Assembly (NCBI GenBank): GCA_902784965.1 | Contig: CACZWU010000029.1 | Coordinates: forward strand, 1-38,110 | Direction: 5' to 3' | From: an uncultured Bacteroidia bacterium | GTDB taxonomy: Bacteria; Bacteroidota; Bacteroidia; Bacteroidales; UBA932 | DNA length: 38,110 nucleotides | Shown: positions 198 to 26,659 of the stretch, piece by piece | Position numbering within the stretch: the first letter of the stretch is position 1 | Layout: every line of letters begins with the position of its first letter | Notes under the pieces: model-generated | The model's database searches: none | Told to the model about the DNA's origin: nothing | What the model saw: the letters and a program-made list of their open reading frames with translations, nothing else | Program-made: the position numbers and the translations under genes

Positions 198-287
198 ACA
201 CAAGAGCGCCATCAGGCGCTAGCGGAGACCGAGCGGGAGAGCCTTGTGTAATAGCCGGTCGTAGCGGCGGGTCTGGGCAGAGCCCAG
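198..287. other. Cluster of small hairpins in non-coding DNA
   Basis: Three short perfect stems are visible. ACACAAG (198-204) pairs with CTTGTGT (243-249). Nested inside it, AGCGCC (205-210) pairs with GGCGCT (215-220) across a 4-nt loop. CTGGGC (273-278) pairs with GCCCAG (282-287) across AGA. The nested AGCGCC hairpin followed by AGC has a close relative at 26660-26677. No coding potential was recognised. The stretch lies between the long inverted repeat and the structured element at 297-430. Confidence 0.4.
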
Positions 288-296
288 TAAGCGCAG

Positions 297-430
297 GCGC
301 GGGTGGGATATTGCTTCGAGGACCCTAACCACCCTCGGTTGATAGAGGGAGGGGCCCGGAATCGGCGTAGCCGATTTTGGGAAGGAGACGAGCCTTGGCG
401 AGTCGGTCCGAGAAGCAATTCCCAGAGCGC
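297..430 (+). repeat. Structured repeat element, copy 1
   Basis: The sequence folds as a long basal stem closing three hairpins. The basal stem pairs 305-308 and 310-317 with 412-423, and 320-324 with 405-409. T309 is bulged and a symmetric GA/GA internal loop (318-319 with 410-411) interrupts the stem. Inside are a hairpin CCCTC/GAGGG (332-336 with 349-353), a 12-bp hairpin with two G-U pairs and a GTA loop (355-366 with 370-381), and a 7-bp hairpin with a CTTG loop (387-393 with 398-404). GCGC at 297-300 and 427-430 may extend the base. A second copy at 26526-26643 keeps the same layout with different arm sequences. Whether it acts as RNA or DNA is unknown; the GA/GA loop favours folding of the plus strand. 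Confidence 0.6.
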
Positions 431-459
431 CCAAGCACAAGCCGATAAAAATCGTTTTT

Positions 460-26361: not shown

Positions 26362-26385
26362 TCATTCCGGGCTTGACCCGGAATC
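26362..26385. repeat. Short REP-like palindrome
   Basis: TTCCGGG (26365-26371) pairs with CCCGGAA (26377-26383) over a CTTGA loop, set in TCATTCCGGGCTTGACCCGG context. This short palindrome type is scattered in many bacterial genomes. It lies between kdd and the long hairpin at 26404-26483. Confidence 0.6.
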
Positions 26386-26403
26386 TATTCGTTTTCGTCT
26401 TCT

Positions 26404-26483
26404 GCGGGCTTCTTGGCTCTGGGATCTCGTTCCGCTCGCGAAAAAATGCTCCCGGAACGAGATCCCACCCGCCTGGGAAGCCC
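26404..26483. repeat. Long stem-loop in the kce-kdd gap
   Basis: A perfect 15-bp stem (26420-26434 with 26453-26467) encloses an 18-nt loop containing A6. GGGCTT (26406-26411) pairs with AAGCCC (26478-26483) to add an outer stem. An alternative outer pairing GCGGG/CCCGC (26404-26408 with 26468-26472) is also possible. No T-run follows on either strand, so it is not a simple terminator. It may stabilise or process the operon mRNA, or be a mobile hairpin. Confidence 0.55.
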
Positions 26484-26525
26484 TAATAGCCATCGGAATT
26501 GCTTAAGCTTATGCCGGAGCGGAAT

Positions 26526-26643
26526 GGTATGTGGATCTGAAACACATAGCCACCCTCGGCTTGTAAGAAGGAGGGGCCCGAAATCGGCTTGCCGATTTTG
26601 GGAGGGGTCGCGCCCTGGCGCGACGGTTTCAGAGACACATACC
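26526..26643 (+). repeat. Structured repeat element, copy 2
   Basis: It folds like the copy at 297-430. The basal stem pairs 26526-26533 with 26636-26643 and 26536-26543 with 26626-26633, with the same GA/GA internal loop (26534-26535 with 26634-26635). Inside are CCCTC/GAGGG (26553-26557 with 26571-26575), an 11-bp hairpin with loop CTTG (26577-26587 with 26592-26602), and a perfect 7-bp hairpin with loop CCTG (26607-26613 with 26618-26624). The core sequence near CCACCCTCGG and GGGGCCCG is nearly identical to copy 1, but the basal arms are different and still pair. It lies between kce and kdd on the strand opposite to the operon. Confidence 0.6.
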
Positions 26644-26659
26644 TGGAGCGGCAGGCAAA

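Follow-up and report, generated by a model that had tools for sequence, protein, structure and literature searches.

The window, by which we mean the whole 38,110-nt stretch of contig CACZWU010000029.1 (assembly GCA_902784965.1, an uncultured Bacteroidia bacterium) that was analysed, contains two folded elements whose basal arms pair within each copy and are unlike between the copies. The question raised by this locus is how arms can stay complementary while their sequence changes. The initial annotation regarded the pairing as the mark of selection for structure; events acting on the DNA itself are the other candidate cause.

Fold of the two copies

Copies 1 and 2 share a common layout, a long, multiloop-closed stem with three hairpins. 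Copy 1 occupies positions 297..431 of the + strand (a match of 135.7 bits to model R1), and the right half of its outer stem extends to about 443. Its 5′ arm (305..324, + strand), GGGATATTGCTTC-GA-GGACC, faces its 3′ arm (405..423, + strand), GGTCC-GA-GAAGCAATTCCC, with the two GA strands of the internal loop at 318-319 and 410-411. The 88-nt core (321..408, + strand) contains hairpin 1 (329..352, + strand; CC-A-CCCTC / GAGGG-A-GG), hairpin 2 (355..381, + strand), in which CCC and GGG flank a variable stem, and hairpin 3 (387..404, + strand), all three assigned from the fold. Copy 2 (26517..26652, + strand; 64.9 bits) sits between two genes of the − strand and is antisense to both; we take these genes, from their appearance, to encode a 3-keto-5-aminohexanoate cleavage enzyme and a diaminohexanoate dehydrogenase. 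Its arms are GGTATGTG-GA-TCTGAAAC (26526..26543, + strand) and GTTTCAGA-GA-CACATACC (26626..26643, + strand).

Direct reading together with the fold confirms that the arms pair in both copies and differ between them. The letters also bear out two finer points of the initial annotation: in hairpin 3 an A-T pair is swapped to T-A and GA/GA is replaced by GC/GC, and hairpin 2 has a pair that is G-U in one copy and A-U in the other. The cores are related, as described, but at 82% identity over about 81 nt "near-identical" is too strong a term. Both copies have the GA/GA loop, at a distance from the multiloop of 5 bp (copy 1) or 8 bp (copy 2), but it is missing from some subfamilies and from the Candidatus Coprenecus copies described below. 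The limits first assigned, 305-423 and 26526-26643, are too narrow; the copy on contig C30, for example, adds an outer stem, GGCTTGTGC...GCACAAGCC. Copy 1 is without the left half of this outer stem, where another repeat is found instead.

The + strand folds with z = −6.6 for 297-430 and −5.2 for 26515-26655, and none of 200 shuffles is equally stable. The values for the − strand of the same two stretches, −6.1 and −4.7, are close to these, as palindromes would lead one to expect. Since both strands fold significantly, the z-score cannot name the strand.

The complete element and its core

The complete unit is about 165 nt long and consists of variable complementary arms around a three-hairpin core of about 88 nt. 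In a complete copy read from the outside inwards, the outer stem (such as GGCTTGTGC/GCACAAGCC) is followed by a short GC stem, a GGG/GA internal loop and a roughly 13-bp arm; next come the GA/GA loop, which many copies have, a closing helix and the core. Within the core, hairpin 1 (CACCC.CG...GGGAGGGG) precedes hairpin 2, whose stem varies freely above its CCC/GGG base; the stretch GGGAGGG and then hairpin 3 come after it. The core also holds purine stretches that are single-stranded and conserved. Invariant columns are confined to the core in 70 aligned copies, and the arms share no sequence across subfamilies.

Distribution

The element was at first taken to have two copies. About 20 are present in its own genome, which is itself incomplete (1.87 Mb in 59 contigs, 78% complete): a DNA search gives 19 matches at E<1e-4, and a covariance model built from 14 copies gives 22 at E≤1. 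Among 61 genomes searched, at least 30 of the 37 that belong to the window's genus carry the element at E≤0.01, with at least 406 matches, which could be annotated as a single family; the highest load in one genome of the genus is 47 among the matches listed. None of the 24 genomes from other Bacteroidales families has the element at E≤0.01 among the matches listed.

A scan of named genomes with the core pattern finds at least 118 stretches. The 80 titles listed are all Bacteroidales or Bacteroidia MAGs, many of them from ruminants; three Candidatus Coprenecus species and Candidatus Cacconaster scatequi are among them. The carriers are bacteria of the rumen and gut. Since Coprenecus belongs to the Rikenellaceae according to NCBI, the core probably occurs in more than one genus. 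In the four Coprenecus stretches read, the core is retained on nearly perfect arms of about 30 bp that are unrelated in sequence. The exact core pattern is missing from the viral contigs searched, and a phage origin was rejected on this ground. These repeats are not named in the literature searched, which consisted of open-licence papers.

Neighbouring repeats

Copy 2 lies beside a hairpin repeat of a second family, family B (26406..26483, − strand), which shares the base motif GCGGGTGG...CCAGAGC with the present element (family A) and has a different tip. Family B has 20 matches at E≤0.001 in the same genome, query included. The base motif is present in 17 of the 18 printed copies (18 of the 20 matches), and a few of the best folds are without the GGG/GA base loop. 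Leaving out the query, which was picked for its position next to a family A copy, three of the remaining 19 have a family A match no more than 50 nt away. The two families thus form a mosaic of the kind found in BIMEs.

Several further repeats occur nearby. The window positions 205-290 (...GGCGCTAGCGGAGACCG...GGGCAGAGCCCAGTAAGC) belong to repeat family D, with 22 matches in the genome, itself included; two of its matches lie inside family A copies (C15, C16), as does one in G033 (L358) by eye, and one fills the place of the left outer stem of copy 1. Positions 1-186 form, by eye, a long imperfect inverted repeat (TGTAACG...CGTTACA, TGTCGAAAAAGGA...TCCTTTTTCGACA), the first 93-96 bases of which exactly match the ends of contigs C30, C49 and C16; because these exact matches are contig ends, the repeat probably breaks the assembly. 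A short hairpin (cattccgggcttgacccggaatc) is located at 26362-26390. Similar CCGG.TTGACCGG hairpins, perhaps another small dispersed palindrome, are seen downstream of the 517-aa gene (site 1, below) in G006, G036 and G033; in G028 and G017 they follow the element.

A smaller relative, family C, shares the stretch GGGAGGGGCCC[hairpin]GGGAGGG and forms divergent pairs with a family A copy, with model edges 31-47 nt apart (L106 1836-1933, L100 2164-2261, L092 2185-2282, L101 1883-1980 and L056 1660-1761). A divergent pair of elements also precedes a gene that is presumably uvrB, named from its N-terminus, in four genomes (L082, L094, L103, L018). At this site in G026 the two element types are in exchanged positions and have different arms, while the short near flanks are 95-99% identical to those of G003 and G033.

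Gene context

Gene contexts were assigned by a simple open-reading-frame rule, not by a gene finder. Of 290 located elements, duplicates included, 177 passed; duplicates, elements at contig ends, those with a neighbour within 300 nt and those in gaps above 400 nt were dropped, and copies inside frames are excluded by construction. The usable copies lie between convergent genes in 68 cases, tandem genes in 94 and divergent genes in 15, compared with 55, 126 and 79 among 260 element-free gaps, so that divergent gaps are underused (15/177 versus 79/260). Copies lie a median of 26 nt from gene 3′ ends and 59.5 nt from 5′ ends. An earlier count under a cruder rule placed 37 of 104 copies inside predicted frames, which we take to be spurious frames in GC-rich DNA, and two of the rest between divergent genes. 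In tandem contexts 45 copies are sense and 49 antisense. With no strand preference, orientation-specific regulation in cis was rejected.

Reversal, gain and loss at the same locus

Eighteen clusters of copies have shared flanks, and 15 of them were lined up; the uvrB group, one place held twice and one cluster with a single shared flank were left out. Nine of these 15 same-locus groups contain at least one copy that faces the opposite way with respect to the adjacent genes. L021 in G000 and L085 in G003 are 96% identical once one of them is turned round, with flanks at 88-92%, and L016 and L084 are 97% identical after turning back, with flanks at 77 and 97%. Five other reversed pairs are 73-86% identical after turning back, and in these replacement by another copy is as likely; the remaining two of the nine are without a value. 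The close genomes G003 and G033 keep the same orientation in all six locus pairs compared.

Hand-picked same-locus pairs, 26 in number, fall into 15 with elements at least 95% identical and 11 at 76-88%, a split that conditions on the outcome and is made over pairs that share copies. In 12 of the 15 high-identity pairs identity is higher in the element than in either 600-nt flank, as in 98.8-99.4% against 88-92%, 98.8% against 85-87% and 100% against 85-93%. The Introduction of PMC8604942 cites an excess conservation of short inverted repeats among proteobacteria and gives recurrent template switching as its cause. On that account, excess identity of the element need not mean purifying selection.

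Presence of the element at a given site is variable. Site 1, downstream of a 517-aa gene, was read in 28 of the 30 fetched loci (L295 and L297, with the gene at a contig end, were left out; ten further genomes have the gene and no locus). Five loci contain the element (G000, G028, G017, G010 and G002, the last reversed), two are collapsed and 21 have none. Of the collapsed loci, that of G026 is reduced to a perfect palindrome that has the same outer arm, while that of G027 has inner arms but lacks a core. At the copy 2 site, one of 26 loci carries the element. G033 has a copy at a place where G003 has none, in flanks that are 97% and 94% identical; since G000 and G022 also carry the element there (reversed in G022), G003 has probably lost it. 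As a candidate target-site duplication, a possible 3-nt TAT repeat seen by eye in this presence/absence pair, whose flanks are above 93%, is indistinguishable from chance. Further presence/absence pairs at site 1 have flanks at 88-91%, and other G003/G033 regions, chosen by offset, mostly failed to align.

Core and arms

The core of copy 1 is identical at 88 of 88 positions to that of a copy at C9:41452 on contig C9, whereas the arms agree at only 18/31 and 20/32 positions. Conversely, C9:41452 and its orthologue in G017 agree at 23/30 and 26/30 positions in their arms and at 62/88 in the core. Over 395 same-genome pairs, from 62 of 84 copies that could be parsed, 43 have cores at least 97% identical; arm identity is below 70% in seven of these and at least 85% in 18. 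Four of the 35 same-genome pairs with arms at least 85% identical have cores below 80%. Exchange between core and arms is real. It is not free, because mean arm identity climbs with core identity and reaches 0.81 at cores of at least 97%.

Covariation and strand

The check proposed in the initial annotation, a search of related genomes for further copies with covarying stems, found both. In 71 distinct aligned copies 96.8% of cells are paired and 23 of 30 pairs change on both sides; for the arms, all 17 pairs change on both sides in some copy. The covariation score of 0.505 compares with 0.156 in shuffled and 0.04-0.08 in slid-partner controls, in an alignment of the 71 copies fitted to the structure. 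Such fitting favours the pairs of the model in both alignments used (A3 and A4), in which a few places are entered twice. Strong covariation alone does not demonstrate selection on an RNA, because DNA-level events at inverted repeats can keep arms complementary. The covariation first read as selection for structure is well founded, but selection is only one of its two possible causes.

The size of the changes bears on this choice. Among 21 same-locus pairs, hand-picked and sharing some copies, 26 of 30 runs of paired change are single pairs and not blocks, so that pure block-wise template switching is unsupported. These pairs contain 37 paired changes, 29 changes of G-U type and 39 that are one-sided or mismatched.

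The + strand gives the more stable fold in 92 of 99 copies. In the core hairpins, G·T mismatches outnumber A·C by 24 to 3 in A3 and by 19 to 1 in A4, where 17 of the 19 come from one column. The arms have 18 G·T and 10 A·C in A3 (p=0.18) and 19 and 6 in A4 (p=0.015); of 1188 arm cells in A4, the 19 G·T compare with 45 cells of other mismatches. The core bears a sign of constraint on a folded + strand, and the arms bear it weakly. Over the whole fold, G-U pairs do not differ between the + and − strands (1.87 and 1.70, p=0.47), and pure RNA selection is unsupported by this asymmetry.

A search of the whole window against 4227 Rfam families at gathering score returns only a tRNA, located elsewhere. 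Relaxed searches with copy 1 and with one Coprenecus copy give weak, unrelated matches (best E 1.1 and 1.8). Membership of an Rfam family was rejected, copy 2 being covered by the gathering-score search. The initial annotation knew no named family with this layout, and the Rfam result agrees.

What keeps the arms complementary

Dispersal, mosaic neighbours, placement and turnover together lead to the reading that we favour with some reserve: the element is probably one family in a set of dispersed, non-coding, REP/BIME-like hairpin repeats with locus-specific arms and a conserved three-hairpin core, in which the arms would be kept partly by template switching or gene conversion and the folded strand would be recognized by a putative protein. 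Reversal, collapse and shared cores imply that events at the DNA level, between arms and also between copies, occur often enough to leave their mark on the pattern. Template switching is described in a passage of PMC8604942 as homogenizing the arms of inverted repeats and inverting their spacer, and in a passage of PMC8794818 as making and maintaining RNA stems. In the present element, exchange between the two halves by template switching or gene conversion could preserve part of the complementarity and could likewise invert the spacer. Another part would be preserved if a protein recognizes the folded strand, and copies may spread as non-autonomous elements on a putative structure-recognizing enzyme supplied in trans. 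Since template switching predicts blocks of paired change and mostly single pairs are found, selection on the fold is probably at work besides it. Several points weigh against the favoured reading: the RAYT-like genes tested have no element beside them, core and arms are not independent, paired changes mostly come singly, the G·T excess in the core hairpins fits RNA selection too, the cruder context count put 37 of 104 copies inside frames, and in seven of the nine reversed groups, in which the copy is otherwise different (five measured), replacement may have occurred.

Two alternatives assign the element a function in RNA. Judged from the sequences, it might be a structured RNA transcribed from the + strand, with a core that binds a protein or ligand and arm pairing selected in the RNA. 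This would account for the covariation above controls, the greater stability of the + strand (92/99 copies), the preference for G·T over A·C in the core hairpins (24 to 3 and 19 to 1), the conserved single-stranded purines of the core, and the 15 of 26 hand-picked pairs with at least 95% identity, 12 of them above either flank. It is hard to reconcile with up to 47 copies per genome among the matches listed, with arms that are unrelated in sequence and almost purely Watson-Crick (G·T in 19/1188 arm cells of A4), with an orientation indifferent to transcription (45 versus 49), with copies reversed at orthologous loci or with an Rfam search empty for the element at gathering score, and we consider it unlikely. 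The elements may instead persist as useful 3′-end structures, as bidirectional terminators or as protectors of mRNA 3′ ends. Such a hairpin could act on both strands, which suits the orientation-independence, and the 26-nt median to gene 3′ ends, the scarcity between divergent genes and the high identity of some same-locus copies point the same way. Yet avoidance of promoters accounts equally well for the placement, and most relatives have no element at the same sites (21/28 and 25/26), so this role seems possible but somewhat doubtful.

The remaining alternatives concern how the core moves. The core of about 88 nt could itself be a mobile or converted unit that enters the tips of resident palindromes in either orientation, the arms belonging to the locus. 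Identical or near-identical cores on unlike arms speak for this, as do Coprenecus cores on unrelated, nearly perfect arms and the base motif that family B shares under another tip. At site 1, G000, G010 and G002 have the common outer arm GGATTGCGC with different or reversed cores, and G026 has the bare palindrome AGGATTGCGCTTTAAGCGCAATCCT; G027, however, has inner arms without a core there, so that G026 may be a further collapse. Arm identity also tracks core identity, the inner arm sequence follows the core subtype by eye, and cores as alike as those of L012 and L063 (70%, 62/88) may suffice for ordinary gene conversion, all of which makes an independent core improbable. A fuller form of the idea would be a modular hairpin-tip system, in which a core cassette enters the tips of resident palindromes, facing either way and irrespective of the arms, a putative enzyme reads it as a folded single strand, and a shared base module serves the tips of families A and B; we hold this to be quite improbable. 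Finally, the reversed copies in nine of 15 groups could be those of a phase-variable inverton, with a site-specific recombinase flipping the core between the arms. The arms offer no common sequence to a recombinase and the orientation is the same in six of six G003/G033 locus pairs (one assembly per species), and an inverton is very unlikely indeed.

The REP/BIME-like family preferred here supplies natural replicates, up to dozens in a genome, of a structure in which the two arms change together. It makes testable whether compensatory changes in stems come from selection on the fold or from template switching in replication. The element shows signs of both causes, with copies reversed and cores shared by different arms on the one hand, and a conserved unpaired core and one-strand tolerance of G·T on the other. 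It also carries a warning, in that covariation, which is relied on in RNA discovery, can arise in palindromic DNA repeats.

Relation to known systems

Miniature transposons of the MITE type are short and non-coding, have inverted-repeat ends and occur in many copies. The element resembles them in all these respects, but its arms have no common sequence across subfamilies, and lack the conserved terminal inverted repeats of the MITE kind, and no parent transposon was found. It resembles the structured RNAs of Rfam in its strong conserved secondary structure and differs in that the window has no gathering-score match to them and the relaxed matches are weak.

The closest likeness is to REPs, REPINs and BIMEs. 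Like these, the element consists of inverted palindromic arms that form a hairpin and are dispersed between genes (the REPIN definition is taken from part of PMC3116915); it lies mostly in convergent and tandem gaps, has mosaic neighbours, and in some subfamilies has imperfect stems with conserved mismatches. A similar placement of REPs, mostly in convergent and tandem gaps, is described in part of PMC3733652, and placement and bulge features in parts of PMC3733652 and PMC8266576. The element differs in its length, about 165 nt as compared with 20-50 nt per REP, and in having a conserved three-hairpin core with unconserved arm sequence. As to the GTAG/CGTC tag of REPs, no invariant column lies outside the core in the 70 aligned copies, an alignment that excludes the outermost ends.

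Y1 transposase genes, which we take to be RAYT-like, are present in 27 of 40 genomes of the genus (25 over the family cut-off). Unlike in REP/RAYT systems, the ten RAYT-like genes tested, in ten genomes other than the window's own, have no element within about 1.5 kb, and a RAYT-like gene as adjacent partner was rejected (0/10 loci). Copy number correlates with the number of RAYT-like genes (Spearman 0.48, p=0.003, n=37, uncorrected for kinship); seven of 30 carrier genomes have no such gene and three of seven non-carriers have one (Fisher p=0.16).

REP dimers nested in long palindromes, GTAG-15 of A. variabilis and CGTC-1 of H. neapolitanus, are described in part of PMC3733652. The element shares with them the arrangement of a repeat inside a longer palindrome; in the part of that source concerned, their palindrome has a consensus, whereas that of the element varies by locus.
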